This document shows, one piece after another, positions 1,954 through 24,583 of a stretch of DNA of 33,835 nt. The notes under the pieces were generated by a model that was not told the origin of the DNA, made no database searches, and was given only the letters and a program-made list of their open reading frames with translations. This stretch comes from Leptolyngbyaceae cyanobacterium C42_A2020_001 (GTDB taxonomy: Bacteria; Cyanobacteriota; Cyanobacteriia; Leptolyngbyales; Leptolyngbyaceae), in contig JACYLN010000103.1 in assembly GCA_015272515.1 (NCBI GenBank), positions 1-33,835 on the forward strand. The letters run 5' to 3'. The position numbers and the translations under genes are program-made. Within the stretch, counting starts at the first letter, position 1, and each line of letters starts with the position of its first letter.

Positions 1954-3534
1954 CTAAATGGTTGGACTCAAATGGGTGAAACTATCATTTGCTACTGGCT
2001 GCTTTTGAAAAGCAAGTTGTTGCGTAATCCGCTCTTTCGCTAACACCCGATATTCCCAGAAGTGTTCTCCAGCGGCACATAGCCCTAAGTACATATTCAG
2101 TACCTGGGGTTTCTTGAGTAACACAATCCAGAGTTGGTACCAAAATTGTCCTCGGATTTCCGATCGCCGGATTCCCTGATGCCAGATCAGTTGAGCGATT
2201 AATGTTAAACCCTTATGGAGCGGGAATTGCATCGTTTGCTGCTTCCGTTTCAAAGACTCAATTTTGAGGCATTGTTGGAAACACCGTTTCAGATAATTTT
2301 TCGGTTCATACAGAGTCCAGAACCCTTCTACATATTCTCTAGCAATGTCGGCAAGCGGGCGAGTCGGAATAAAGTTCATCAACGTATTTTGGTCGCCCGT
2401 TGGATGACTATTGCTCGCAATTAAGCGCTGCTCTTTTTTCAACCGATCCCATAAGGCAGTGTTCGGGAGTGCTTGCAGAATGCCTAGCATGGGTTGCGGA
2501 ATGCTTGTTTGTTCGACGAAGGCTTGAATGCGATCGCCTGCGCCTGCTTTCTCGCCATCAAACCCAAGAATAAATCCTGCATAAATTAACAGCCCAGCCT
2601 TATTGATCTTGTCACAGGCTTCGACTAGAGGATTACGAGTGTTTTGCAATTTGCGGGTTACTTGCAAACTATCTTGATCAGGCGTTTCAATGCCTAAGAA
2701 AACGGCAAAAAAGCCTGCTTCACCCATTAGTTGCAGTAATTCATCATCCTCTGCCAAATTCACCGAAGCTTCTGTAATGAAGCTGAATGGATAATTACGC
2801 TGCTGCATCCAGGGAATCAGTTCTCTGAGAAAGCGTTTAACGTTCCGCTGATTGCCAATAAAATTATCATCGACGACAAAAAGTGACCCGCGCCAACCGA
2901 AATCATAGAGTGTCTGTAACTCAGCTAACGCTTGATCAGGTTCTTTGGTACGAGGTTTGCGACCATAGAGCGAAATAATGTCACAAAACTCACAATTAAA
3001 CGGACACCCACGCGAAAACTGGATTGCCATCATCAAGTAGGCATCCCGCTTTAGTAAATCAAACCGGGGAATAGGGCTTTGAGTCACATCAGGTTTCTCA
3101 GATGAGCGAAAGATTCCCTGCCTATCGCCCTGCTCGATCGCCTCCAGGAATTTGGGGACGGTCATTTCCCCTTCATCCAGAATCAGGAAATGAGCACCCG
3201 CGTCTAAGGCATCTTTTGGCACAGAGGTTGGATAAGGTCCACCAACAGCGACTTGCTTACCTAACTGAACGGCTTTTTGAATTAGCGCCTGTAAATCCGA
3301 CTTCTGCACGATCATGGCGGAAAGAATCACCAGATCGCACCACTCCCAATCTGCTTCGCTTTCGCAAGCAACGTTGCGATCGTAAAATCGGATTTCCCAA
3401 GTGGACGGGAGTAGTGCTGCAACGGTAATAATGCCCAGAGGTGGAATCACCGCTTTCAATCCAGCAATTTCCATGAAGCGATCGTAAGACCAGAAGGACT
3501 GGGGAAATTGAGGATAGAGCAACAATGCTTTCAT
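1954..3534 (-). CDS. B12-binding-domain radical SAM protein (DUF4070 type), copy 1
   Basis: This 526-residue protein has an N-terminal cobalamin-binding-like Rossmann domain (about 1-145), a radical SAM core with the 4Fe-4S motif CPFNCEFC (Cys177, Cys181, Cys184) and a C-terminal DUF4070-like region. The FVVDDNFIGN and FLGIETPD motifs are shared with the hopanoid methylases HpnP/HpnR. Family members use S-adenosylmethionine, and some use cobalamin, for radical methylation. The DxHxxG cobalamin-ligand motif is not visible. This group is common in cyanobacteria and is not clearly HpnP, so the substrate is left open. It is a close paralogue of the gene at 4129-5706, and both begin with the same LLLYP...SFW block. 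The two are separated by a MITE-like element and a small gene. Confidence 0.87.
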   Translation of the reverse strand: MKALLLYPQFPQSFWSYDRFMEIAGLKAVIPPLGIITVAALLPSTWEIRFYDRNVACESEADWEWCDLVILSAMIVQKSDLQALIQKAVQLGKQVAVGGPYPTSVPKDALDAGAHFLILDEGEMTVPKFLEAIEQGDRQGIFRSSEKPDVTQSPIPRFDLLKRDAYLMMAIQFSRGCPFNCEFCDIISLYGRKPRTKEPDQALAELQTLYDFGWRGSLFVVDDNFIGNQRNVKRFLRELIPWMQQRNYPFSFITEASVNLAEDDELLQLMGEAGFFAVFLGIETPDQDSLQVTRKLQNTRNPLVEACDKINKAGLLIYAGFILGFDGEKAGAGDRIQAFVEQTSIPQPMLGILQALPNTALWDRLKKEQRLIASNSHPTGDQNTLMNFIPTRPLADIAREYVEGFWTLYEPKNYLKRCFQQCLKIESLKRKQQTMQFPLHKGLTLIAQLIWHQGIRRSEIRGQFWYQLWIVLLKKPQVLNMYLGLCAAGEHFWEYRVLAKERITQQLAFQKQPVANDSFTHLSPTI

Positions 3535-3616
3535 AAAGCCTTGCGATAACTTAAGTTGACTCTAACATGCTGGGAAGCTTCATAGAATTACACTATATTA
3601 AGCTGTGAAGATTTTG

Positions 3617-3771
3617 GGCGTTGCTGAATAGGAATATGATTTACTGAGAGAGTGGTACATCACTAAATTTGAGATAGTGCAGTAACAATCGCGAGTGCTT
3701 CAGCATTTCTACAGACTTGGAATAGCACGATGTCTTACGATCCTGATTTCATATTCCCATTATGCAACGCC
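3617..3771. repeat. MITE-like element with 23-nt terminal inverted repeats
   Basis: The left end begins GGCGTTGCTGAATAGGAATA (3617-3639). The right end (3749-3771) is its near-perfect inverse, starting TCATATTCCCATTATGCAAC and ending GCC. The 155-bp interior has no coding capacity. The GGCGTTGCTGAAT end is typical of cyanobacterial transposase-dependent elements and recurs at 33748. The right end supplies the last codons of the small gene on the minus strand. No clear target-site duplication could be identified. Confidence 0.75.
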
Positions 3772-3960
3772 ATTAATTAGTCCTTCATCATCCATTGTGT
3801 AGCCAATGACAAAATAGCCAATGACAAAAGGAGTATTGCTCGATTGAGCCTGATCCTGGCGAATATTGACTTGAACTTCTGCTGGGACTAGTTCAGTACC
3901 ATTGCTGTAGTAAGTCCTATTCTGATTGAGGGTGCTCTCTTGCGTCTTGGTGTAGCTCAT
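3760..3960 (-). CDS. Small hypothetical protein, 3' end replaced by the MITE
   Basis: This 66-residue protein is hydrophilic and Gln/Asn-rich at the start (MSYTKTQEST), with a conserved-looking block (YYSNGTELVPAEVQVNIR) and an acidic end (TMDDEGLINGVA). The ATG at 3960 is preceded by a good GAGG ribosome-binding site, which favours it over a TTG four codons upstream. Two features are odd. A 15-bp in-frame tandem duplication gives FVIGYFVIGY. The last three codons and the stop (GGC GTT GCA TAA) lie inside the terminal repeat of the adjacent mobile element, so the native C-terminus has probably been lost. The family is not recognised with certainty. It sits between two radical SAM paralogues on the same strand. 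Confidence 0.6.
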   Translation of the reverse strand: MSYTKTQESTLNQNRTYYSNGTELVPAEVQVNIRQDQAQSSNTPFVIGYFVIGYTMDDEGLINGVA

Positions 3961-4128
3961 GGGATGCCTCAATTAAACTTTATACTCATGATCATAGTTG
4001 ATTTCAAGAATAAATGTGTCGCTAAATAATATATTAATTGCTAAGCCACATTGGCGATCGCTCAAATAGCCCGCTAGAGAATGTTTGAGAAATAGGTAGA
4101 TGAGGTGTGCAAAAAGAGGAATTAGTGT

Positions 4129-5706
4129 CTAGATTGAGTAATTTGCTACTAATTCAGACGTTTTTGAATCAGTCGATGAATAATGAGCTAATTGATTTTC
4201 GATTTCATTTCGTACAATTTGCCGATAATCTACAAAATGTTCTAAGTGAGCGCAGTTAGTTAGATAGTGCTCAAACACATTTGGATTGTGCCGAATAATT
4301 GCGAATAACTGCCGCCAAAACTGCCAACGGGTATTGCGTTTTAGACCTTGTCGCCAGCAAATGATAAATAGTGCCCGCAAGTCTACTAAGCCTGGCAATT
4401 TGAGTTTTTTCTTGTGGGGATGCGGCTTCATGTTAATGAAATGGCGATAGACTCGTGCTAGATAGCGATCGGGTTCATACAAATCCCAAAAGCATTGAAT
4501 ATATTCCTGGGCAATCTCTTCTAGCGGACGGGTCGGAATAAAATTAATCAACGTTGTTTGATGGATATTCGCTTCATTTCCTGTTTCCAGTAAACGCCCC
4601 TCTTTTTGTAAACGCTGTGACAATGCAGTATTGGGCAAAGCTTGCAACATACTGAACAGGGCTTGTGGAATTGCAGTTGCTTCTACAAAATCAATGATGC
4701 GATCGCCCGCCCCTGATTCTTCACCATCGAATCCAATGATGAACCCTGCCATTACCCGTAATCCTGTCTGATTAATCGTTTGAACCGCTTCTATCAAAGA
4801 ATTACGAGTATTTTGGAACTTCTGCGTCAGCGATAAGCTCTCTGTATCTGGGGTTTCAATGCCCAAAAAGACTGCTGTGAAATTGGCTGCAATCATCAAA
4901 TCCAATAATTCTTGATCTTGTGCCAGATCAACAGAGGCTTCTGTTGAGAGACTAAAGGGATAACCTCGTTCTGCCATCCAGGGAATAAGTTCTCGCAGCA
5001 GCAATTTGGCATTACGCTTGTTACCAATAAAATTATCATCGACAACAAAGAGCGATCGCCGCCAGCCCAAATCGTATAGCGTTTGTAACTCGGCTAGCAG
5101 TTGAGCTGGAGTTTTAGTGCGTGGCTTGCGTCCATAGAGCACAATAATGTCGCAGAATTCACACTGGTAAGGACACCCTCGCGAGAACTGAACGGACATA
5201 TCGCTATATGCCTTGAGATTCAGCAAGTCAAACCGAGGGATAGGGGTAGTGGTGACATCTGGCTTCTCTCCATTCGCTCGAAAGATCCCTGAAGTGTCGC
5301 CTCGCTCCAATGCTTCTACTAGTAACGGTAAAGTGATTTCGCCCTCATCTAGCACCAAAAAATCTGCTCCGGCTGCCTGTGCCAACTCAGGAACCGACGT
5401 AACATAAGGGCCTCCAACTGCAACTCGCTTGCCCCGTTGCTTTGCCCTTTCAATCAGATACAGCATGTCGTCTTTTTGAACAATCATGCCAGAGATGATT
5501 ACTAAATCTGCCCAATACCAATCTGCTTCGCTTTCATACCCAACATTTCGATCTGCCAGGCGAAATTCCCACGTTTGGGGCAAGATAGCCGCCACCGTGA
5601 TTAGACTTAAGGGTGGAAGGGTAACTTTACGACCAATTAACTCCAGGGCTTTGTCAAAAGACCAGAATGATTTTGGAAAAAGGGGATAAAGTAATAAAAC
5701 TCGCAT
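4129..5706 (-). CDS. B12-binding-domain radical SAM protein (DUF4070 type), copy 2
   Basis: This 525-residue paralogue is collinear with the protein at 1954-3534. It has an N-terminal cobalamin-type Rossmann domain (about 1-145), the radical SAM cluster motif CPYQCEFC (Cys178, Cys182, Cys185), the FVVDDNFIGN and FLGIETPD blocks, and a DUF4070-like C-terminal region. It is expected to carry a 4Fe-4S cluster, cleave SAM reductively and act on an unknown, possibly lipid, substrate, since its nearest characterised relatives are hopanoid methylases. It starts 5 nt after the stop of the coiled-coil gene at 5712-6149, so those two are very likely co-transcribed. No DxHxxG motif is visible. The C-terminal 100 residues diverge most from copy 1. 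Confidence 0.88.
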   Translation of the reverse strand: MRVLLLYPLFPKSFWSFDKALELIGRKVTLPPLSLITVAAILPQTWEFRLADRNVGYESEADWYWADLVIISGMIVQKDDMLYLIERAKQRGKRVAVGGPYVTSVPELAQAAGADFLVLDEGEITLPLLVEALERGDTSGIFRANGEKPDVTTTPIPRFDLLNLKAYSDMSVQFSRGCPYQCEFCDIIVLYGRKPRTKTPAQLLAELQTLYDLGWRRSLFVVDDNFIGNKRNAKLLLRELIPWMAERGYPFSLSTEASVDLAQDQELLDLMIAANFTAVFLGIETPDTESLSLTQKFQNTRNSLIEAVQTINQTGLRVMAGFIIGFDGEESGAGDRIIDFVEATAIPQALFSMLQALPNTALSQRLQKEGRLLETGNEANIHQTTLINFIPTRPLEEIAQEYIQCFWDLYEPDRYLARVYRHFINMKPHPHKKKLKLPGLVDLRALFIICWRQGLKRNTRWQFWRQLFAIIRHNPNVFEHYLTNCAHLEHFVDYRQIVRNEIENQLAHYSSTDSKTSELVANYSI

Positions 5707-6216: not shown

Positions 6217-6714
6217 TCACACTTCTACATCAGTAAAAAATTTTTCACCTAGATTTAGTCTTGCTAGCCAGTCATCGGCACGAAACGGCTGCGTAATCTT
6301 TGACATAAGGACTAGGCTCCAGACCTCAGTAACGAATTGAGCGACATCAAGAGGCTTAATTTGATAAGCTTCAACTTTAATCCTTAAATGTTCGGCAAGA
6401 TTTACAACAGGAAAGGTTGAAGTCACAAAAATTGGAATCACCTTGCACCTATTTTGTGCGATTGATCTCACCTTATGAATCAAAGGGTCAATACTTTCTC
6501 CAAAAAATCTGGCTTCACAAACTAAAACATCAGGTACGAATCGATTTAGAAGCTCTAAAGCCTCCTCAATTGATCCAGTCGTCATTACTACCATACCGTA
6601 ATGCTCAAACAAAGTGGTATATAAAGCTCCACTGTCACGATCATTATCAACCGTAAGAATGTGTACCTTATTAAGTATGGATAGATTAAGGTGAATATCT
6701 TGTGTTAATAACAT
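6217..6714 (-). CDS. Degenerate response-regulator receiver protein
   Basis: This 165-residue protein is a receiver (CheY-like) domain at about residues 17-135, with a short C-terminal tail and no output domain. Receiver landmarks are present but altered. The acidic pocket pair is Asn24-Asp25 (VDNDRD). The phospho-acceptor position is Glu67 ([10 protein letters not shown]) where Asp is normal. Thr/Ser and Lys are retained (VTST at 97-100, IKP with Lys120). Glu can mimic a phosphorylated Asp, so the protein may be locked in an active-like state or signal without phosphorylation. It ends 67 nt before the coiled-coil gene on the same strand. Confidence 0.8.
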
Positions 6715-7070
6715 ATCCTATCACGTACACAGGTGGCGGTCATGGCTTCACTGTAGGCATTGCCGCCAGGAGAAACGAGGCTCGGTCGGCGCTGAAACAA
6801 TTGACTGTTCGTGTTTGATTGCGTGAGTGAATTGATTAACTATACCAGGCACCGATCCATATAATTCCACAGTCGAGGTGGGTGGTTTCTCTAGACACAG
6901 CAACGCAACAACGAACCAAAGCATTGGGAGAATAAATTGGGACTGAAGATCGTGCACGCACGCAATTGAGATACACAGAACTCTTCTATAGTTTGTTAAT
7001 TTTTTGCTGTGAATGTGATTTGGGTAATTGATGGGTACTCTAACTAAAATTCTGTTAATAGAGACGGCAC
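6715..7070. other. Intergenic region upstream of the exoprotein gene
   Basis: I see no convincing gene here. A 69-codon minus-strand frame (6748-6957) starts with a hydrophobic stretch but has no ribosome-binding site or family resemblance. The AT-rich stretch at 6980-7060 probably holds promoters for the flanking divergent genes, but no clear -35/-10 pair could be fixed. Confidence 0.4.
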
Positions 7071-9583
7071 ATGAAACTGAGTTTGAGTATGGTGAGGCGG
7101 CACCGTAGCAGTGCGATCGCTGGATGTTTGTTATCTATCGGTATTAGTTTCCCAGTGCAAGATGGGGCGATCGCCCAGGTGAGTCCTGACGGCACACTTT
7201 CGACCACCGTGACTCAAAGTGGCAATAACTTCACAATTACCAACGGCAATCAAGTCGGGGGCAACCTGTTCCATAGCTTCAGCCAGTTCTCAGTACCCAC
7301 TGGAGGTTCTGCCTTTTTCAACAATGCTCTGGATGTGCAAACCATCTTTGCGCGAGTCACCGGTGGCAATCTCTCCAATATCGATGGCTTCATTCGTGCT
7401 AATGGCAGTGCCAATTTGTTTCTGATGAATCCCGCTGGCATTATCTGGGGTCCGAATGCCCAATTAAATATTGGTGGTTCTTTTGTGAGTACCACGGCTA
7501 ATAGTATTCGATTTGCCGATGGCTTTGAGTTTAGTGCGGTTAATCCTGCTGCTCCTTTATTGACAGTGAGTGTACCTCTTGGTTTGCAAATGGGTAGCAA
7601 TCCTGCTCCAATCACTGTACAAGGGACTGGTCATGCCCTAGCATCAGTCAGCACGCTTGCCCCATTAGTGCACAATCCCAGTCCTTCTGAACTGGGCGTA
7701 CTGCCCGGAAAAACGCTGGCTCTGATCGGGGGCAACTTATACCGTGCCGGAGCAACCTTAAATGCTCCTGAAGGACACATCGAATTGGGCAGTTTAAGCG
7801 GAGCGGGTTGGTAGACTTAACCGCTACCCCTCAGGGGTATCGGTTTGCATATGAGACTAAACAAGGCTTTAGCGACATTCAGCTCAGCCAAAAATCTTTG
7901 TTAACTGCGGGAGCTATGCTCAGTATGGGCGCGTTGCAGGCGGGTTCAGTGCAATTACAAGGACGACGCATTCAATTCAGTGATGGGTCATTGGTGCTAT
8001 CCAAAAATTTTGGCAATCTGCCAGGTGGAGAGATTCTTGTACGTGCATCAGAAGGAATTGACTTTGTTGGTACTACAGCCGATGCTCAAATTCGGAGTGG
8101 CATTCGCACAGAAACGTTAAATGCAGGAACAGGCTCAAACATTCGTATTGTTGCTCCCCGCTTAACACTTTCGCAAGGATCTGCGATCGGCACCACGGCT
8201 TTTGGCTCTGCATCCAGTGGGGAGATTCACATTGAGACAGATTCGATTGAGCTATCGGGTTCCTCTGCAATTAACCCCACCGGGGTTACGTCCTTAACGA
8301 CCAGTTCCCGCGGCACTCAACCCGCAGGTAATCTCTCCATTACTACGAACAGCCTTTTGGTGTCTGGAGGTGCAGGGGTTTCTTCGGTAACCTTTGGTGC
8401 TGGTTCTACGGGGCAAGTCACCATTCGCAGTATGGATACCACAGTAACTGGAGAGAACTTTGCGGGACTCTACAGCAACATTAGTGCTATCACCTATGGC
8501 ACGGGGAATGCTCAAACCCTGACATTAGATACTGCCCGACTGCAACTGCTGAATGGAGGTGTTGTTGCTACCACGGCATGGTTGATTGGGGAGGCGGGCA
8601 ACGTTAATGTCAATGCAACGGATGCGATTTTGATTCGTGGGAATAGTCAATTCAACAATAGCAGTATTAATTCAGCCGTGATTCACCCAGGAGTCTTGAT
8701 TCAACAAGCGTTTGGCTTGCCGGATATCCTGTCAGCAAATGCAGGTAATGTAAATATCATCACTCCAAACCTAATCCTGACTGATGGTGGAACAATTAGT
8801 GTAACCAATCAGGGAAGTGGTAATGGTGGCAATATTAGAGTCACTGCAAATACAATGAATCTCGATCGCCAGGGAACTATTCAAGCCCAAACAGCCTCTG
8901 GGGAGGGTGGCAATATTACCTTGCGCGCTAATAGTTTGGTGCTTCTTCGCCATAACAGTTTGGTGAGTGCAACATCGGGCGCTACAGGCAATGGCGGCAA
9001 CATTACGATCTCTGCACCGATCGTAGCGGGATTTGAAAATAGCGACATTATTGCCAATGCGGTCAGAGGTCGCGGTGGCAATATTCAAATCACCACGCAA
9101 GGTCTGTTTGGACTCAAGTTTCGCAATCAACTCACACCAGAAAATGACATCACTGCCAGTTCTCAGTTTGGCGTGAGCGGCACCGTACAAGTCAATACCA
9201 TTGGAGTTGATCCTAACTCTGGCTTGGTGACGTTACCTGCGGATGTGGTGGATTCATCGCAGCAAATTGTGGCAGGATGCGAGGGCAGACAGGGTAACAG
9301 TTTTGTGGTCACAGGTCGAGGAGGTGTGCCGCAGAATCCTACGCAGCAAGTGATGAGCGATCGCCCCTGGGATGATGTGCGTGATGTGAGTGCGTATCGC
9401 CAACCCGATCAAGCGGTGATTGCCGAAACCGCTCCTCCTGCCCCAGGTCTGATTCAAGCCAGCGGATGGAAGCAGCATTCTGATGGCAGTGTGGAGTTGA
9501 TTGCAGAATCAGCGGCTGCGGTACCTGCTTTTGCTACCTGTAGTGGAACGACCACCTCAGCTACCCATTTAGTTGGTGAGTAG
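7071..9583 (+). pseudogene. Filamentous haemagglutinin-type exoprotein (TpsA-like) with a 1-nt frameshift
   Basis: This is one gene in two frames. The first part (7071-7814, 247 aa) has a signal peptide ending near AIAQ and a two-partner-secretion domain with NLFHSFSQF, NPAGIIWGPNAQLNIGGSF and related beta-helix seeding motifs. The second part (7808-9583) continues with Gly/Asn/Thr-rich beta-helix repeats (GGNITL, GGNIRV, GGNIQI). It ends with the usual cyanobacterial module containing a Cys followed by GNSFVVTGRGG and PNPTQ. At 7805-7814 the text GCGGGTTGGTAG needs one extra T to read GAG-LVDLT, the consensus junction. The intact protein would be about 838 aa, exported and secreted through a TpsB/ShlB-type porin that is not in this window. 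The lesion may be a real mutation or a sequence error. Confidence 0.85.
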
Positions 9584-14202: not shown

Positions 14203-16506
14203 TTAGATGTACATAGCGAAGTAGTTTTCATAGATTTCCGTATTTGTGGATAAAGTCTGATTGATTGCGGCGCGATCGCTATCTCGCTCTGCCCCGGTCG
14301 CGTTATCAAGACTTACATCGGGAATGTAATCACCACAATATTCATTCGCAGGAACCACTTGGTTGATCTTTTTGGGATAACTCAAACCGAGATGGTTCAT
14401 GAGGGTAATGAATTGGTCGCGGGTGCGATCTTGAAAGCGGGGATTCAGTCGTTTTTCTTCCCCAATCGTGGAGACGGTGCGCCCTTTGTAGTCATGAGCT
14501 GGATAAACGAGGGTATCTTCTGGCAGAGTAAATAACCGTTGGGTGACGGTGTCGTAGAGCGTACCCGCATCGCCTGATTGCAGATCCGTGCGACCGCAAC
14601 CGCGAATCAGCAGAGCATCTCCCGTCAGTAAGTGAGTATTGTTGATCAGATAAGCCAAGTGACTATTGGTATGTCCGGGGGTTGCGATCGCCTCAATCCG
14701 CACAGTTCCAATCATCAAGGTTTCGCGATCGGCAAGGGAATGATCAGCCGATCGCGCTGTGGCATGTTGCGGTACCAAAACCTGACACCCAGTTTGCTGC
14801 CTGAGTTTGCCTGCTCCCGTAATGTGATCCGCATGAATATGGGTTTCCAAGCAGTAGCGCAGACTCAGCCCCAAGTCATGCAACGCTTGTAAATCGCGAT
14901 CGACTTGCTCTAACACCGTGTCAACCAATACCGCTTCCTTGGTTTGGTGGTCTGCAATCAGGTAAGTGTAAGTACTGGATTCCGGGTCAAAAAATTGGCG
15001 AAATAGCAGCGTTGAGGGTGGTAGCGGAGGACGCGACTCGCCACAGTCTTGCTCAATGGCACGGGTTGACGCAATTCCTTGAGCAAACGTAGGAACCGGA
15101 CGCACTCGGATCGGTAGGGACTGTAAAACCGTTGCGGCTAAAGTCTGAGCTTGTTCTCGCAGTTCCGGGACCGCGATCGTTTCCCACAAATTGCCTTTGC
15201 GGGGAGTCCCCAGCGTATACAGCAAACTGGAACGGTTGCCTGCCATGTCCAGGATCGCACCATCAGCCGCCGTATCCATTCCCAAACCCAGGTCATTGGG
15301 GCGGATCAAGCCCTGCTCCCGCAAATTCGCAATTAATGGCTGCGGCGATCGCCGATAATCTGCCTGAATACCCGTACAATTCACCACCCGACTGACGTTC
15401 AAAACCATTGTTGTTTTCGTGTGGCGTTGGGCTAAGATAACGTCTACTGCTGCCGGAGTTACTTGATAGGCTTGAATCCGTCCGGCGAGAATGGTGAGTT
15501 GCCCGGAGTCTTGCATCATCTGCACAATCTCCCCAATTTCAGGCGCAATGCGGTGACGATGCACATCCCAATAAGGCGCGACATGGCGCAAAAACCGCCG
15601 TTGTTCTCGACGGGGCAATTGTTGCCAGAGAGATTGAGTGATGGGACGCAGGGAATCGATTACCGATCGCCAGTCATAACCCTGTACTGCTGCGGTCTGC
15701 ACCTCATGTCGAAGCCAGCGCCATAATCCACGCACCGTTTTAGGAGCGGTGGTGGGTGTTGCCCAGGTAAGATAAGGTTGGGTAGATTGATGCACTAAAG
15801 GAGCCAAACCGCGACGAGACACAGCATAAATTTTGCCCTGATGCTGGCGATCGTGCAGAGACACGACCATATCCACCATCGTCAGCCCCGTGCCAATTAG
15901 CAAGACGGGTGCATCTGCTTCAAGATCTGCCAACGCTTCTGATGACCAAGCATGACGCAGATACGAACGGTCTTCAGATGATTGTGATCCGGGAGGGGTA
16001 GCAGGAGCATTGCCCAGTGCCAGGACGACCTTATCTGTGGCGAACAAACGACCGCTGCGGAGGGAGACTAACGCCCCTTTTGGTTGAGGCTCGATCGCCA
16101 CAACCTCATCCGTGATCCGCTCGAACCGTACCAAACTGGAGGAGGTTGCTTCTGCTTCTTCCAAAATCGATTGCAGATAAAGCCCGTAGACTTGTCGGGG
16201 AATGAAACTGCTGGCGTTCAACTTTTGGGGCAACACTGCTGCTAACTCGTGCTGGTTGTAGTTGAGCCAGCGTAACAAATGTCCTGGATCATCGGGAAAG
16301 GCACTCATCTTACCAGCGGACACATTCAGCAGATGGCTTTTAGTGTTCGTACTATAGGCAACGCCTTTGCCAATTTCAGGACGCTGCTCAATCAGCTTGA
16401 TAGTCAGAGGACGGTTAGCAGATTTCAACAGATGCGCCGCAACCAGAGAACCACTAAAGCCAGCCCCAACAATCGCGATCGTGGTCGGAGAATCAGAAGT
16501 CAGCAT
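14203..16506 (-). CDS. Fusion: FAD/NAD(P)-binding oxidoreductase + ETHE1-type persulfide dioxygenase
   Basis: This 767-residue protein has two enzyme halves. The N-terminal part (about 1-475) is an FAD/NAD(P)-binding flavoprotein of the NAD_binding_9 type, with IVGAGFSG (13-19), the LLNVSAGKMSAFPDDPGHLL segment, and a second nucleotide site LLIGTGLTMVD (about 202-212). The C-terminal part (about 498-730) is a metallo-beta-lactamase-fold ETHE1-like persulfide dioxygenase, with HIHADH (His556, His558, Asp560, His561), TPGHT (His612), TGDALLIRGCGRTD (Asp630) and YPAHDYKGRTVSTIGEEK (His671). ETHE1 enzymes oxidise glutathione persulfide to sulfite. The ATG at 16506 is the first ATG; an in-frame TTG at 16581 could add 25 residues. 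The joined flavoprotein may generate or reduce persulfide. The fusion partner is unusual. Confidence 0.85.
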   Translation of the reverse strand: MLTSDSPTTIAIVGAGFSGSLVAAHLLKSANRPLTIKLIEQRPEIGKGVAYSTNTKSHLLNVSAGKMSAFPDDPGHLLRWLNYNQHELAAVLPQKLNASSFIPRQVYGLYLQSILEEAEATSSSLVRFERITDEVVAIEPQPKGALVSLRSGRLFATDKVVLALGNAPATPPGSQSSEDRSYLRHAWSSEALADLEADAPVLLIGTGLTMVDMVVSLHDRQHQGKIYAVSRRGLAPLVHQSTQPYLTWATPTTAPKTVRGLWRWLRHEVQTAAVQGYDWRSVIDSLRPITQSLWQQLPRREQRRFLRHVAPYWDVHRHRIAPEIGEIVQMMQDSGQLTILAGRIQAYQVTPAAVDVILAQRHTKTTMVLNVSRVVNCTGIQADYRRSPQPLIANLREQGLIRPNDLGLGMDTAADGAILDMAGNRSSLLYTLGTPRKGNLWETIAVPELREQAQTLAATVLQSLPIRVRPVPTFAQGIASTRAIEQDCGESRPPLPPSTLLFRQFFDPESSTYTYLIADHQTKEAVLVDTVLEQVDRDLQALHDLGLSLRYCLETHIHADHITGAGKLRQQTGCQVLVPQHATARSADHSLADRETLMIGTVRIEAIATPGHTNSHLAYLINNTHLLTGDALLIRGCGRTDLQSGDAGTLYDTVTQRLFTLPEDTLVYPAHDYKGRTVSTIGEEKRLNPRFQDRTRDQFITLMNHLGLSYPKKINQVVPANEYCGDYIPDVSLDNATGAERDSDRAAINQTLSTNTEIYENYFAMYI

Positions 16507-16652
16507 TTCTAGAAACCCCACTCGCGGATTGTAACCGTTGTTGCTTGCTTCATTCTTACTATCATGAGAGACTGCTATCAATGAAATACGGCATCTGTAT
16601 TGATTTACAGTATTTTAGACGCATCTATCCAGATTTATCCAGGGGGTTGGTG

Positions 16653-17951: not shown

Positions 17952-19028
17952 ATGCGTCGTACTCCTACCTGCACGATTTCCTTAGTGCTGACCGCAGGGT
18001 TCAGTCTGAGTTTGACAACGCCCTTTCATCCTGCGATCGCCTCTCCCCAAGCGCTCTCAGATCAATCAAAGTCTCAATTGATTAGTCAATCTCCCAAGAA
18101 GGTGGAGTTGCTGTTAGTGTCCTATGCAGTGACGAAAGCTGCTTACGACAAGATCATTCCCAAGTTTGCGGAAAAGTGGAAACGGGAAACCGGGCAGGAA
18201 GTAACTATCAATGCGAGCTATGCTGGATCGGGTACTCAAACTCGCGCCATCTTAGATGGGCTTGAAGCAGATGTTGCAGCACTTGCACTTGCACTGGATA
18301 CAAAGCGGTTGGAGAAAGGTGGATTGATTCAACCTGGGTGGGAAAAAGAAGCACCCAATGATGCGATCGTGACGCGATCGGTGATTGCATTTGTGACTCG
18401 TCCTGGTAACCCAAAAGGCATTCGTACCTGGGCAGATTTAACAAAACCTGGAATTCAAGTGATTACCGCTAATCCTAAGACTTCTGGTGGTGCTCGTTGG
18501 AATTTCTTGGGTTTGTGGGGCGCGATTACCCAAACAGGTGGCAAAGAAGATAAAGCGCGTGACTTTGTGAGTCAGGTGTATCGCAATGCCCCATTGCTGC
18601 CAAAAGATGCTCGAGAGGCAAGCGATGCATTCTTTAAGCAAAAGCAGGGCGACGTACTGCTGAACTATGAGAATGAAATGATTCTGGCCTCTCAAAAAGG
18701 TGAAACCGGATTTTTCACCGTCATTCCCCAAACGAATATTTCGATCGATAATCCTGTCGCTGTTGTGGATAAATATGTCGATAAGAAGGGAACTCGTAAG
18801 GTCGCTGAGGCATTTGTGCAGTTTTTGTTCACACCAGAAGCACAAAGAGACTTCGCTAGTGTTGGCTTTCGTCCGGGTGTACCCACCTTAACCAAAGAAT
18901 TGGATAAGAACTTTCCCAAAGTGACCAAGATCTATACCGTGAAGGACTTTGGTGGCTGGGACTCAATCCAGAAGAAGTTTTTTGATGATGGTGCTGTGTT
19001 TGACCAAATTTACAGCCCATCTCGTTGA
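17952..19028 (+). CDS. sbpA: Periplasmic sulfate-binding protein (sulfate ABC transporter)
   Basis: This 358-residue protein has a signal peptide (residues 1-30, ending near AIAS) and the sulfate/thiosulfate-binding protein fold. Family motifs are VELLLVSYAVTKAAYDKIIP, SYAGSGTQTRAILDGLEADV, GWEKEAPNDAIVTRSVIAFV and NPKTSGGARWNFLGLWG. It captures sulfate in the periplasm and passes it to a CysT/CysW/CysA permease, which is not in this window. The mature protein has a single Met (NYENEMIL) and no Cys, as expected for a protein needed when sulfur is scarce. It lies 48 nt upstream of a TonB-like gene on the same strand, and a terminator follows exbD, so an sbpA-tonB-exbB-exbD transcript is likely. 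Confidence 0.95.
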   Translation: MRRTPTCTISLVLTAGFSLSLTTPFHPAIASPQALSDQSKSQLISQSPKKVELLLVSYAVTKAAYDKIIPKFAEKWKRETGQEVTINASYAGSGTQTRAILDGLEADVAALALALDTKRLEKGGLIQPGWEKEAPNDAIVTRSVIAFVTRPGNPKGIRTWADLTKPGIQVITANPKTSGGARWNFLGLWGAITQTGGKEDKARDFVSQVYRNAPLLPKDAREASDAFFKQKQGDVLLNYENEMILASQKGETGFFTVIPQTNISIDNPVAVVDKYVDKKGTRKVAEAFVQFLFTPEAQRDFASVGFRPGVPTLTKELDKNFPKVTKIYTVKDFGGWDSIQKKFFDDGAVFDQIYSPSR

Positions 19029-19076
19029 TATGCCTCTATGCTGACGATCCTCGCTCTCGACTAAAGGGGACAGTTC

Positions 19077-20276
19077 ATGCCCCTTTTCTACATGTTTAGG
19101 ATAAAAGGAATGCCTTTGTCTTCTTCAGAAAAATCTCTGCAACAACTCAACGGCAATCCTGAACCCATTGATTTTGCAGGAAACAACTTCCACCAGTCTA
19201 CTGATGGTGAAGTGGAAACGCGATCGCCTGCTTCTATCCCCGTTGAATCGTTATCTGATGGTAATGTTCCACCTTTATTTTCAGTCTCTCGGCAAGGAGG
19301 CGGAATTGCGAGATGGATTTGGGTTGTTGCCTTCGCATCAATTGGCTTACATGCTGGCGTTTTGCTGATTCCGATGGGAGAGGAGGCAAAACCACCGCCT
19401 CCCAAACCGCCTGAGAATCAGGTTCGCATTACGCAGTTACCCACCTTAAAGAAACAGCCCACCATTAAACGCCCGCCCAAGCCTGTTGTGAAGCGGGTTT
19501 CTGCTTCCAAAGTCAGCCGTCCTCAAATCAAAACCCCAACAGCCCCAACCGTGGCTGCTGCGTCTAAACCTCCTGCTGACCCATTGAAGGACGAGCAGCC
19601 AGGAGAAGATAGTCCCTGGAAAGATTTCCCGCTTTATCCCGGCTCTACAACTGGATGTTTTGAATTGCCATCCTGTTTGCAAGCAGATGCCGATTTGAGT
19701 CAGGTGTCAGCTCACTTTGCCGGGCAACTCCCTGCGAAGAAGTATGAGATCAAACGAGTTGCTCAGGAGACAGGACGACAGGTTTATCAGGTGACTCGCA
19801 GTGGGTTATCCCAGTTTCTCAGCATCATTGAGAATGGTAAGAAGACCGTCTATGTTCTATCTGATGCACCCCGCACCTTAGCGGATTTAGAAAAAGCTGT
19901 AGAGGTGCCGCCGGAAATCTACGCCATTTTGGTGGGATTGGCAGTACAGCAAGCCGATGCTTCTGCTTTTGCTCAACCTAATCAGTTTTATGCCAAAGCC
20001 GATGGAAAAGGTTTGAATGCGGGTGAGCTAGTGCCGCGATCGGGAATTCGCAATATCAGCCTGGTGTCGGGACAATCAGCAGATACGATGATGGATGAGT
20101 TTTTGCGTTCTAACTTACAAAATAGTGATTTTGAAGTGACGGATATACCTAAACAATATGGAGGTGGGAAAGTTTATCGAGCCACAAAAAAAAGTCAAAC
20201 TCTATATTTAAACCTAGTTCCAACTAAAGATAATAGTGGTACGTTGCTTGTGATCTGGAAAACTCCACCAGGTTAG
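19077..20276 (+). CDS. TonB-like periplasm-spanning protein with an unusual C-terminus
   Basis: This 399-residue protein has a cytoplasmic N-terminal part (about 1-80) and one membrane segment (WIWVVAFASIGLHAGVLLIP, about 82-101). A Pro/Lys-rich periplasm-spanning region follows (PPPPKPPENQ ... KRPPKPVVKR), as in TonB. The C-terminal half is not a recognisable TonB domain. It contains two similar alpha-beta modules (about 200-265 and 335-398), each with a helix followed by a KYEIKRV/DFEVTDI strand, a VYQVTR/VYRATK strand and a final hydrophobic strand. Two Cys (TTGCFELPSC) may form a disulfide. The start at 19077 has an AAAGGGGA ribosome-binding site; 19110 is an equally good alternative. The following ExbB and ExbD genes support a TonB-type role. 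No TonB-dependent receptor is in the window. Confidence 0.75.
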   Translation: MPLFYMFRIKGMPLSSSEKSLQQLNGNPEPIDFAGNNFHQSTDGEVETRSPASIPVESLSDGNVPPLFSVSRQGGGIARWIWVVAFASIGLHAGVLLIPMGEEAKPPPPKPPENQVRITQLPTLKKQPTIKRPPKPVVKRVSASKVSRPQIKTPTAPTVAAASKPPADPLKDEQPGEDSPWKDFPLYPGSTTGCFELPSCLQADADLSQVSAHFAGQLPAKKYEIKRVAQETGRQVYQVTRSGLSQFLSIIENGKKTVYVLSDAPRTLADLEKAVEVPPEIYAILVGLAVQQADASAFAQPNQFYAKADGKGLNAGELVPRSGIRNISLVSGQSADTMMDEFLRSNLQNSDFEVTDIPKQYGGGKVYRATKKSQTLYLNLVPTKDNSGTLLVIWKTPPG

Positions 20277-20307
20277 AAGTGCTGAGCACTGAGAATTGAG
20301 TGCTGAG
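20277..20307. repeat. 31-nt dispersed repeat in the tonB-exbB spacer
   Basis: AAGTGCTGAG and TGAGTGCTGAG flank a variable 10-nt middle. The inverse occurs at 11148-11178 with 27 of 31 bases shared. It starts at the base after the tonB stop codon. Confidence 0.6.
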
Positions 20308-20341
20308 TAAATTTTAGTCTTCCTATTCCCCATTTCATCCT

Positions 20342-21022
20342 ATGTCTACTGTCTTTCAGTTTCTTGCCAAAGGTGGTCCGGTCATGATCCCGATCGTAGG
20401 ACTCTCGATCGCGACGGTTGCCAGTGCGTTAGAGCGGGCCATTTTCTGGTCTCGGCTACTGCGAGCGGAAAAACGGATTGTGCATGATGTGCTTGAGGCG
20501 GCTCACTACAACCTGGACACTGCCGCTGAGATTGCCTTTAAAGCCCAAGATCAGCCGATTGGACGGTTTTTATTCTCAGCCTTGCGATTGCAAGACCCAA
20601 CACCAGAAACGTTTCGACTGGCACTACAAACCACTGGAGAAGAAGAATTTATTGAAATGCGGCGGGGCAATCGCTTGTTAGAAACAGTCGTCGCAGTAGC
20701 ACCCTTGCTAGGTTTATTAGGCACGGTAACAGGCTTGATTGTTACTTTTGTGAATCTGAAAATCGGCGGTGGCGGATCTTCAGTCGATACGTCTAAAGCC
20801 GCAGAAGGGATTGGGGAAGCGCTGATTACAACCGCTGGTGGAATGATTGTTGCTATCGTCGCTTTATTGATCTTACGAGTCAGTACGACGTTTCAAGGCA
20901 AACAGGTGGAATATTTTTCCAAAGTTGCTGGTAAGTTGGAACTGATTTATCGCCATCTCTGGTATGAGCGATCGCAAATACCAGAGGAGTCGCGATCGCA
21001 ATTCGCCAATCGCGAATTTTAA
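20342..21022 (+). CDS. exbB: ExbB/TolQ/MotA-family proton channel protein
   Basis: This 226-residue inner-membrane protein has three membrane segments (about 13-35, 117-140, 158-182). The ExbB/TolQ signature is AVAPLLGLLGTVTGLIVTF in the second and GEALITTAGGMIVAIVAL in the third. It forms the pentameric proton channel that, with ExbD, drives TonB. It has four Met and no Cys. It lies 65 nt after the TonB-like gene and 26 nt before exbD, consistent with one operon. MotA or TolQ roles are less likely given the TonB-like neighbour. Confidence 0.93.
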   Translation: MSTVFQFLAKGGPVMIPIVGLSIATVASALERAIFWSRLLRAEKRIVHDVLEAAHYNLDTAAEIAFKAQDQPIGRFLFSALRLQDPTPETFRLALQTTGEEEFIEMRRGNRLLETVVAVAPLLGLLGTVTGLIVTFVNLKIGGGGSSVDTSKAAEGIGEALITTAGGMIVAIVALLILRVSTTFQGKQVEYFSKVAGKLELIYRHLWYERSQIPEESRSQFANREF

Positions 21023-21048
21023 CTTATCTACTATTCAAAGTTTTATCT

Positions 21049-21459
21049 ATGTCTTACTTTGATTCTCAAAAAAGTAATTCTCAAATTCCAGAAGTCAATC
21101 TGGTGCCGATGATGGATGTGATTATGACGATTCTCACGTTCTTCATCATTGTTTCCATGACTATGACTGATTTTCAATCGGTGAATGTGCCGTTACCCAA
21201 AACAGAAAAAGGTGCAACTAAAGAAAAAATCCCCGATCCGATGATTGTGGCGTTGAATCAACAAGGTCAGATTTTGCTGAAGAATCAAAATACAACCACG
21301 GAACAATTGGAGCAGCAGATTGTGGTGTATCTCAACAAAAATCCAAAGGGTGCTGTGGTGTTAAAAGCTGATCGTAAATTGTCCTATGAAAAAGTAGTAC
21401 AAATTCTAGGTGCAATTCGTGAAGTTGGGGGCGATCGCGTTTCGTTGGCGATCGACTAA
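21049..21459 (+). CDS. exbD: ExbD/TolR-family protein
   Basis: This 136-residue protein has one membrane segment (about 20-42) starting with NLVPMMDVIMTILTFFIIV. Asp23 is the conserved proton-carrying aspartate. A periplasmic domain with QQGQILLKNQ, VVLKADRKLSYEKVVQILG and a final GGDRVSLAID is typical of ExbD/TolR. It partners the ExbB gene 26 nt upstream and is the last gene of the presumed sbpA-tonB-exbBD operon; a strong hairpin follows. Confidence 0.93.
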   Translation: MSYFDSQKSNSQIPEVNLVPMMDVIMTILTFFIIVSMTMTDFQSVNVPLPKTEKGATKEKIPDPMIVALNQQGQILLKNQNTTTEQLEQQIVVYLNKNPKGAVVLKADRKLSYEKVVQILGAIREVGGDRVSLAID

Positions 21460-21572: not shown

Positions 21573-22481
21573 TTATGCCGTGACTTTTTTGCGCTTCTTC
21601 AACATCAAACCAAGTCCTCCCGCGACCAATGCACCAGTCATCGTAAACGGTTCTGGAACCGCCGCAACGACTTTGAAGTCGGGGCCGTTATCGCCACCTA
21701 AAGCTCCCAGGTTGTTATTTGAACTGGTTAACCGCAAGGTTTTTGTTGCACCGTCATCCAGCCGTAGCCCGATTGAGCCAAGATTGAAGGGACCATTATT
21801 GAGTACGGGAATAACCTGAGTGCTGATGTTGTAATCTGCTTTGGTATAGTTTGCTCTCAAGATTTTATAGCTGGCTAAAACCGTACTGCGATCGTCGCTC
21901 AACGCCTCAACGAGTAAATCGCTGTCTCCTGCGGTCGTACCTCCCGCTGTTCCGCCTCGCTCCCAGAAGAAGAACAAACTGACTGGATTGGCAAAGGAAA
22001 CTTCAATGCTGGCAGTATTCGCATTTTCTCTGGTCACCAGAATGCTATTCAGGTTCAAGTTGCCTAGACTTCCCACAATATCTTGATCAGTTGGATTCGG
22101 TTTGGATGGTCCCTCCCCAATCAGTGGATCGCTGGCAGTATTGGGTCCGCGTCCAGAGTGAAGCACACCATAGACACTGCCATCGGGAAGGGTATAAGTA
22201 TCGTTGCGAAGCACCTTTGCGTCAGACACGACTTCAAATTGATTGATGGTGCCACCTCCAAAGACAATGGAATCCAGACGAATATCTTTAGTTGGGTCAT
22301 TCAGCAAGCCGCTAGCTGGCTCGATCGGTGGACTGGCAGTGACATTCGTTTGGAACGAAAAAGGAGTAAATGTAGCCGCTTGGGAGGAAACCGCATTGGT
22401 CATTGCGATCGCCGTTGTAGAAACCAGCGATGCAGCAATCACAACCGCTCTCCTCGAAAAGAGATTCGTTCTCTGAGTCAT
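21573..22481 (-). CDS. Exosortase-dependent (PEP-CTERM) surface protein
   Basis: This 302-residue exported protein has a signal peptide (RRAVVIAASLVSTTAIAMTN, cleavage near SQA-ATF) and a Gly/Asn/Asp-rich beta-type body with GGDNGPDFKVVAAVPEP near the end. A PEP-CTERM sorting signal follows: VPEP, a hydrophobic helix, then KKRKK. Exosortase removes this tail and the protein is delivered to the cell surface or matrix. The body resembles cyanobacterial XDP-type exosortase substrates. Between the signal peptide and VPEP there is no Met and no Cys. It is convergent with exbD across the terminator. The function is unknown. Confidence 0.88.
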   Translation of the reverse strand: MTQRTNLFSRRAVVIAASLVSTTAIAMTNAVSSQAATFTPFSFQTNVTASPPIEPASGLLNDPTKDIRLDSIVFGGGTINQFEVVSDAKVLRNDTYTLPDGSVYGVLHSGRGPNTASDPLIGEGPSKPNPTDQDIVGSLGNLNLNSILVTRENANTASIEVSFANPVSLFFFWERGGTAGGTTAGDSDLLVEALSDDRSTVLASYKILRANYTKADYNISTQVIPVLNNGPFNLGSIGLRLDDGATKTLRLTSSNNNLGALGGDNGPDFKVVAAVPEPFTMTGALVAGGLGLMLKKRKKVTA

Positions 22482-23011: not shown

Positions 23012-23206
23012 ATGGAAATTCGCGACAAACAACTGCTGAAGTTAAAAACTGAACGATCAAAGCCAAAATTTGTATTAATAGAAACAAAAACAAAAACATT
23101 CACTGATGGTTTTAAAACCAAAAAATTAAGTTCTCTAATCTACAGCTTCATGCTAGGAATTAATAAACTGAAAAGCTCTAAATATTTATTAATAAATGGA
23201 TGTTAG
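23012..23206 (+). CDS. Doubtful small Lys-rich ORF
   Basis: This 64-codon frame is AT-rich and Lys/Thr-rich (KTKTFTDGFKTKKLSS), with no clear ribosome-binding site, no recognised domain and base use unlike its neighbours. It may be chance. It is listed because it is the only plus-strand frame upstream of cpcB. Confidence 0.2.
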   Translation: MEIRDKQLLKLKTERSKPKFVLIETKTKTFTDGFKTKKLSSLIYSFMLGINKLKSSKYLLINGC

Positions 23207-23492: not shown

Positions 23493-24014
23493 ATGGTACA
23501 AGATGCCTTCACCAAGGTCGTTTCTCAGGCAGATGTCCGAGGAGAATACCTTAGCCCGGGTCAGTTAGATGCTTTATTGGGATTGGTTCGCGATGGCAAT
23601 AAGCGAATTGATGTGGTGAACCGGATTTCTAGCAATGCCTCTGCGATTGTCGCCAGTGCTGCCCGGAGCTTGTTTGAGGAACAACCTCAATTGATTGCAC
23701 CGGGTGGCAATGCCTACACCAATCGTCGTGCAGCCGCGTGCTTGCGAGATTTAGAAATTATTTTGCGCTATGTCACCTATGCCGTTTTTACAGGTGATGC
23801 CAGTATTCTGGAAGATCGGGCACTTAATGGTTTACGAGAAACGTATCAGGCTCTGGGAGTTCCTGGCGGTTCAGTGGCAGCAGGAATCCAAAAGTTAAAG
23901 GAAGCCTCTCTGGCGATCGCCAATGATCCCAATGGCATTACCAAAGGCGATTGCAGCAACATTTTATCTGAAGTTGCTGGCTATTTTGATAAGGCTGCAT
24001 CTGCGGTGGGATAA
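23493..24014 (+). CDS. cpcB: Phycocyanin beta subunit, sulfur-sparing (CpcB3-like)
   Basis: This 173-residue protein is a full-length C-phycocyanin beta subunit ([70 protein letters not shown]). It carries bilins on Cys83 and Cys154 (standard beta-82 and beta-153) in phycobilisome rods. The only Met is the initiator and the only Cys are those two. Standard Met79 is Ala80, the Met of LRDME is Leu87 and Cys109 is Ala110. The conserved Asn73 that is gamma-N-methylated is kept. This matches the sulfur-sparing PC-3 known from Calothrix/Fremyella. A strong AGGAG ribosome-binding site is present. It is followed by cpcA after 77 nt. Confidence 0.95.
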
Positions 24015-24091
24015 CTCAAAGCACCTTGCTTTTATTCCATAATCACAGTCTTTTTTACTCATTGTTCAATTATCTAGGAGACATTTCATCT

Positions 24092-24583
24092 ATGGCAAAG
24101 ACTCCGTTAACCGAAGCAGTCAATGCGGCGGACTCTCAAGGTCGCTTCTTGAGCAGCACCGAATTTCAAGTTGCCTTTGGTCGATTTCGGCAGGCAGCAA
24201 ACTCTTTAGAAGCCGCAAAAGAACTGTCGAATCGGGCCCAAAGCCTGGCTGAAAATGCTGCCAACGCTGTGTACCAAAAATTCCCTTATACCACGCAATT
24301 GCAAGGACCGAATTACGCCTCTGATGCCCGGGGTCGAGCGAAGTGCGTGCGGGATATTGGCTACTACTTACGCATCGTCACTTATGCCCTGGTGGTTGGT
24401 GGCACTGGCCCGATCGATGAATATTTAGTAGCTGGATTGGCAGAGATCAATAGTGCCTTTGAACTGTCCCCCAGTTGGTATGTTGAAGCGCTCAAGCACA
24501 TTAAAGTCAATCACGGTTTATCTGGAGATCCAGCGGTTGAGTTGAACTCTTACATTGATTATGTGATCAATGCCTTGAGTTAG
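24092..24583 (+). CDS. cpcA: Phycocyanin alpha subunit, sulfur-sparing (CpcA3-like)
   Basis: This 163-residue protein is a full-length phycocyanin alpha subunit ([71 protein letters not shown]). The single Cys85 (standard alpha-84) is the bilin site. There is no Met apart from the initiator: the usual Met and Cys of YYLRMVTYC are Ile95 and Ala99. Start 24092 is chosen from homology and its TAGGAG ribosome-binding site; a frame open from 24026 adds a non-homologous hydrophobic stretch. A terminator follows at 24802 with no linker gene between, so it is a two-gene operon with cpcB. Confidence 0.95.

Follow-up and report, generated by a model that had tools for sequence, protein, structure and literature searches.

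The 33,835-nucleotide stretch of DNA analysed here (the window, from Leptolyngbyaceae cyanobacterium C42_A2020_001) carries a cpcB-cpcA pair that is very probably a PC-3-type phycocyanin, a spare antenna replacing ordinary phycocyanin in the rods when sulfur is scarce. PC-3 is a textbook example of a protein whose sequence has been altered to economise on an element. Phycocyanin-3 (cpcB3A3) was reportedly described in Calothrix/Fremyella/Tolypothrix PCC 7601 by Mazel and Marliere in 1989 and by Gutu et al. in 2011, and to our knowledge PC-3 is known from one strain. Like the window pair, the PC-3 of PCC 7601 is free of Met and Cys except for the start Met and the bilin Cys, and is present alongside an ordinary cpcBA. 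PCC 7601 adapts to low sulfate with antenna proteins that are poor in sulfur amino acids (PMC4424289). Comparison with other cyanobacteria led us to a wider, joint reading that we consider reasonably probable: a recurring sulfur-famine neighbourhood (sulfate/sulfonate uptake, persulfide recycling and the purged antenna), patchily distributed and found on a 1.2-Mb plasmid record in Kovacikia minuta; a small second residue fixed in both subunits, with the initiator Met recovered and only three bilin-bound sulfurs left; and a separate, permanent purging in main operons.

The pair consists of two genes:
23493..24014, forward strand: cpcB, phycocyanin beta (TIGR01339), 173 aa, second residue Val
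24092..24583, forward strand: cpcA, phycocyanin alpha (TIGR01338), 163 aa, second residue Ala
The start of CpcA was set at the conserved ATG 24092, while the mechanical ORF list had TTG 24026; a previous reading of the sequence alone (the sequence-only reading) had located the pair correctly at 23493-24583, with the CpcA end at 24583, and had not stated the CpcA start. Both products exceeded the curated C-phycocyanin cut-offs (CpcB, 291.8 bits against TIGR01339, cut-off 279.3; CpcA, 290.3 bits against TIGR01338, cut-off 269.45), and their closest solved structures were phycocyanins. Recounting both chains bore out the claimed residue numbers, with one Met (the start) and two Cys in CpcB, and one Met (the start) and one Cys in CpcA. 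That all three Cys are bilin sites was likewise confirmed, as columns 82 and 155 (beta) and 260 (alpha) hold Cys in 95/95 ordinary and 33/33 PC-3 rows, the window included. The aligned columns also agreed with the proposed replacements: the window has Ala at both columns that we take to be beta-Cys109 and alpha-Cys98, and Ala, Leu or Ile at columns usually occupied by Met. Ordinary pairs (n=95) contain a mean of 14.6 Met+Cys, 9.6 beyond the five of the window pair, and the Poisson probability of zero extra residues at this mean is 6.6e-5; the absence is not one lucky draw, because the same zero recurs throughout the clade of relatives described below.

Comparison with the other cpcBA of the host (contig C41), which the sequence-only reading had proposed, revealed that the main copy is not poor in Met and Cys, with 14 residues (5 Met/3 Cys plus 4 Met/2 Cys) versus five in the window pair, so that the main sequence-based objection to that reading fails. 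In agreement with this, six of the six PC-3 genomes checked have one or two further cpcB of ordinary content (5-8 Met, 3 Cys). Two congeners were also searched, G001 (84% complete) and G002; a purged pair was found in neither, and their best matches were CpcB of the ordinary kind (6 or 5 Met, 3 Cys). No linker gene lies beside the window pair, with no ORF of at least 70 aa within 740 bases after cpcA, and, ApcE aside, all six linker genes of the host retain Met or Cys; we counted both results against the PC-3 reading. The same observations, together with the searches of the two congeners, favour a silent or decaying relic, acquired or retained but outside the rods. We nevertheless regard a relic as quite improbable, since neither frame is broken, both are fully purged and their bilin sites are normal, and several further intact PC-3 pairs likewise have no adjacent linkers. 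Rod linkers without internal Met or Cys are present at several other PC-3 loci, and the locus of Calothrix brevissima NIES-22 has the order cpcBA-linker-linker-CpcD, which presumably matches the cpc3 operon of PCC 7601; the window pair differs from the PC-3 of PCC 7601 in having no linker genes of its own.

To place the pair among its relatives, we built a tree of 159 distinct cpcBA pairs without the Met/Cys-bearing columns, with branch support given as SH-aLRT and no bootstrap. Met+Cys numbered 5 in 38 and 6 in 3 pairs (purged), 7-10 in 23 (intermediate) and 11-17 in 95 (ordinary), proportions that are not those of nature because the set was gathered with PC-3 queries. In this tree, which the sequence-only reading had called for, the window pair fell inside a single clade of 33 purged pairs (SH-aLRT 95), 32 with five Met+Cys and one with six. 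The clade includes the purged pair of NIES-22 and those of other Nostocales, and by its place with the NIES-22 pair the window pair may share descent with the PC-3 of PCC 7601. By parsimony on one tree, ten internal Met/Cys were lost on the clade stem, and changes to Met or Cys made up 1/655 of the changes inside the clade versus 67/2724 elsewhere (p 1.4e-5). This count omits four start columns, two of which merely reflect the shifted initiator Met; with the start columns kept in, the values were 1/666 versus 68/2739, with twelve stem losses. At columns where Met or Cys is unusual the constraint was weaker (1/631 versus 27/2530, p 0.03), which we counted against the PC-3 reading.

Maintenance of the purged state bears on whether the low Met/Cys content is accidental, a product of drift or lineage composition. 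In the host, the other linkers and the sulfate-binding proteins likewise contain rather little Met and Cys, as such an accident would have it, yet the chance of a zero is about 7e-5, 33 pairs of a single clade have kept the zero, which other branches of the tree have also attained, a single change to Met or Cys was counted inside the clade, and the host's second copy is normal. We therefore consider an accidental origin extremely improbable.

Fully purged pairs are also found in other parts of the tree, among them those in the main operons of four Nostocales. The purged pairs outside the clade are four from Nostoc/Cylindrospermum, one from G179 and three from genus g113, and a single clade of all purged pairs was rejected (log-likelihood difference 262.6, p 1.5e-49, on 52 hand-picked rows of the 159). 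The purged label changes six times on the tree, four of these changes being forced by well-supported branches, and the counts do not distinguish gains from losses. The pairs of Nostoc T09, CHAB 5844, FACHB-110 and Cylindrospermum FACHB-282 (5, 5, 5 and 6 Met+Cys, respectively) have reached the same end state as the window pair, with small second residues in both chains. Unlike it, they stand in another part of the tree, lie inside a long cpc operon with linkers, and have no ordinary cpcB alongside that was found at E 1e-70. In Nostoc T09 the purged cpcB was the sole match at this threshold, and the other three genomes each had one other, more distant match (257-267 bits versus at least 328). 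In CHAB 5844 this other match, a neighbour of the purged pair, fell under both C-phycocyanin cut-offs, and we take it to be phycoerythrocyanin. If the assemblies are complete, the purge in these Nostocales looks permanent.

The purged chains also differ from ordinary ones at their start. The second residue was small (G, A, S, T, P, V or C) in both chains of 41/41 purged, 13/23 intermediate and 4/95 ordinary pairs, a comparison of purged with ordinary that ignores kinship, which weakens the statistics. In the window's clade the second residue of CpcB is Val in 28 pairs, Ala in 4 and Ser in 1, and that of CpcA is Ser in 21, Thr in 9, Ala in 2 and Pro in 1. The small residue is one extra after the Met, and most ordinary pairs begin MLD/MFD and MKT. 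An independent-pairs test of second residue against purging gave two cases in the same direction, none in the opposite one and two without difference, too few for the test to become significant; the small second residue is already present in unpurged relatives within the Nostoc group. From the small second residues in both chains we predict that the initiator Met of purged chains is recovered and recycled.

To characterize the surroundings of the purged pairs, we searched for sulfur-related genes within about 9.5 kb, contig permitting. At least one was found at 26/34 PC-3 loci versus 0/81 controls (61 ordinary cpc regions and 20 stretches spaced along two PC-3 genomes; Fisher p 4e-19), and none of those sought at the 8 regions with purged pairs outside the PC-3 clade. 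The first 24 PC-3 loci gave 17/24, a value biased upward because the query families were chosen from those loci, while ten later loci gave 8/10 with the same families and 9/10 after adding a persulfide dioxygenase fusion, which joined the query set once the later loci had been viewed. One locus, L228, rests solely on an NtaA/DmoA-family monooxygenase, a family not confined to sulfur, and without it the counts were 25/34 in total and 7/10 among the later loci. When kin loci were merged by eye into 19 groups, 16 had a match (15 without L228), which against 0/81 controls gave p 7e-16. The sulfur genes sought were not found at eight of the 34 loci (L048, L049, L078, L157, L096, L100, L105 and L229), which we counted against the PC-3 reading. 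Families above their NCBIfam cut-offs near PC-3 were sulfate-binding protein, CysT, CysW, SsuA, SsuC, alkanesulfonate monooxygenase, cysteine synthase, the O-acetylhomoserine sulfhydrylase family and MetX (one of two models); the names TauD-like and mercaptopyruvate-sulfurtransferase-like are approximate, because the scores lay under the respective cut-offs.

In the window, the first two of the following features are its part of this neighbourhood, and the third adjoins the sulfate-binding protein:
17952..19028, forward strand: sulfate ABC transporter substrate-binding protein (TIGR00971, 285.9 bits, cut-off 155.5)
14203..16581, reverse strand: FAD/NAD(P)-binding domain fused to an ETHE1-like persulfide dioxygenase domain, by structure matches
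19077..21459, forward strand: 399-aa protein without Pfam match, an ExbB-like gene and an ExbD-like gene, immediately following the sulfate-binding protein
Sulfate ABC transporter substrate-binding proteins recur beside PC-3, and the host has two more sulfate-binding matches, both on contig C92. Residues 525-754 of the fusion product matched 4ysb (3.1e-73) and the persulfide dioxygenase ETHE1 4chl (1.3e-65), and homologues of the fusion were found at 8/34 PC-3 loci (L089 and six later loci included) and at 0/81 controls. The order sulfate-binding protein, 399-aa protein, ExbB-like and ExbD-like is the same in L084 and L160, and the four-gene group at 17952-21459 suggests energised outer-membrane uptake. 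The genes for the sulfate-binding protein and the persulfide dioxygenase fusion near the pair also set it apart from the PC-3 of PCC 7601, with which it was compared by description. Together with the normal second cpcBA and the clade shared with NIES-22, these surroundings uphold, as far as sequence tells, the PC-3-type identity that had been proposed for the window pair.

Several proteins of these neighbourhoods are themselves poor in sulfur. The sulfate-binding proteins that bacteria make when starved of sulfur have few Met or Cys residues; they resemble PC-3 in this respect, being periplasmic transport proteins unrelated to it in sequence. The sulfur-poor sulfate-binding protein of the window was dropped as a special feature, all host sulfate-binding proteins being poor in sulfur. 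TauD-like dioxygenases beside PC-3 (L158, L161, L080, L232, L233, L236 and L241; about 305 residues) have 0-1 Met+Cys after the start, and L079 and L081 hold large proteins of about 610 aa nearly without Met and Cys. The SomB porins beside PC-3 in these two loci lack both Met and Cys over their final 480 residues, and were also dropped as special, since L269 and L287 equalled them among 30 porins from three genomes. Other porins of the host can likewise be nearly free of both residues. A CRP-family gene beside the Microcystis PC-3 scored 85 bits with the PtrA model, far under the cut-off of 300, and was not established as a sulfur regulator.

The side chains of Met and Cys oxidise easily, and their removal could instead have produced an antenna that tolerates oxidants under high light, drying or similar stress. 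This explanation draws support from the purged main operons of the four Nostocales and of g113/G179, for which sulfur saving is less directly supported because none of the eight regions had sulfur genes nearby. For the window pair we consider it unlikely, as protection against oxidation predicts neither the sulfur-gene neighbours of PC-3 nor the small second residue in every purged pair, and the ordinary, Met-rich cpcBA is retained alongside.

Regulatory signals were sought upstream of the pair. A de novo motif search of 22 PC-3 upstream regions returned a log-likelihood of 184, versus 69-78 in eight shuffles, for an element that lies in the window at:
23177..23198, forward strand: AT-rich upstream element, about 316 bases before cpcB
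The element was present in 18/22 PC-3 and, at the same distance, in 33/90 ordinary cpcB upstream regions; since it also precedes ordinary cpcB, we read it as a general cpc promoter element and not as a sulfur box. A TGTAAAAAT-like plus TTGTARGG pattern (9/22 PC-3, 0/90 ordinary) was set aside, having been chosen after looking and being absent from the window. In a search for riboswitches, no Rfam match in the window reached the gathering score. A sulfur-specific promoter signal was not established in the PC-3 upstream regions, and we counted both results against the PC-3 reading.

Purged pairs were carried by at least 12/42 genomes of the order and by at least 27/388 genomes across the class, 23 of the latter in the window's clade. 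Carriers include Calothrix brevissima NIES-22, Nostoc linckia FACHB-104, Fischerella muscicola PCC 7414, two Brasilonema, Scytonema tolypothrichoides, two further Calothrix, Leptolyngbya FACHB-321, Pantanalinema GBBB05, one Chroococcidiopsidaceae genome and three Microcystis records. In Kovacikia minuta CCNUW1 a match of 80% identity lies on a plasmid record of 1,207,795 bases. The open-access literature searched contained no survey of PC-3 beyond PCC 7601, which proves little as most subscription papers lie outside it; nor did we meet there the sulfur-gene neighbourhood, the small second residues or full purging elsewhere on the tree.

Other parts of the window hold features of separate interest. 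On the reverse strand, 6714-6812 is a short remnant that looks like a piece of a phycobilisome subunit; 33 residues within an open frame of 44 aa match PF00502, and the remnant stands immediately upstream of a response-regulator-like ORF (6217-6714). Also on the reverse strand, 21573-22481 encodes an exosortase-dependent surface protein, XDP2 (145 bits, cut-off 75), a relative of which lies near PC-3 in Microcystis L092, and 1954-5706 holds a tandem of two similar B12-binding radical SAM-type proteins (526 and 525 aa; the first alone was scanned). Two consecutive ORFs in different frames at 7071-9583, forward strand, resemble one secreted protein split by a frameshift, which we take to be of filamentous-haemagglutinin type.

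On the PC-3 reading of the window pair, sulfur limitation would switch on the cpcB3A3 locus, and PC-3 would replace ordinary phycocyanin in the phycobilisome rods, the host most likely assembling PC-3 rods with ordinary linkers. Met and Cys from the ordinary phycocyanin would be reused, and the small second residues (Val, Ala) would allow methionine aminopeptidase to cleave off the initiator Met, so that it is recycled. A mature PC-3 alpha-beta unit would then hold three sulfur atoms, and an ordinary unit up to 14.

The window pair is a well-preserved member of a known, apparently little-surveyed kind, and it is the wider pattern that holds the interest. At least 33 PC-3 pairs from many genera, mostly near sulfur genes, make up a comparative system; the clade offers routes to the switch and a test of initiator-Met recycling, and opens the switchable purging of PC-3 to comparison with the apparently permanent purging of Nostoc.
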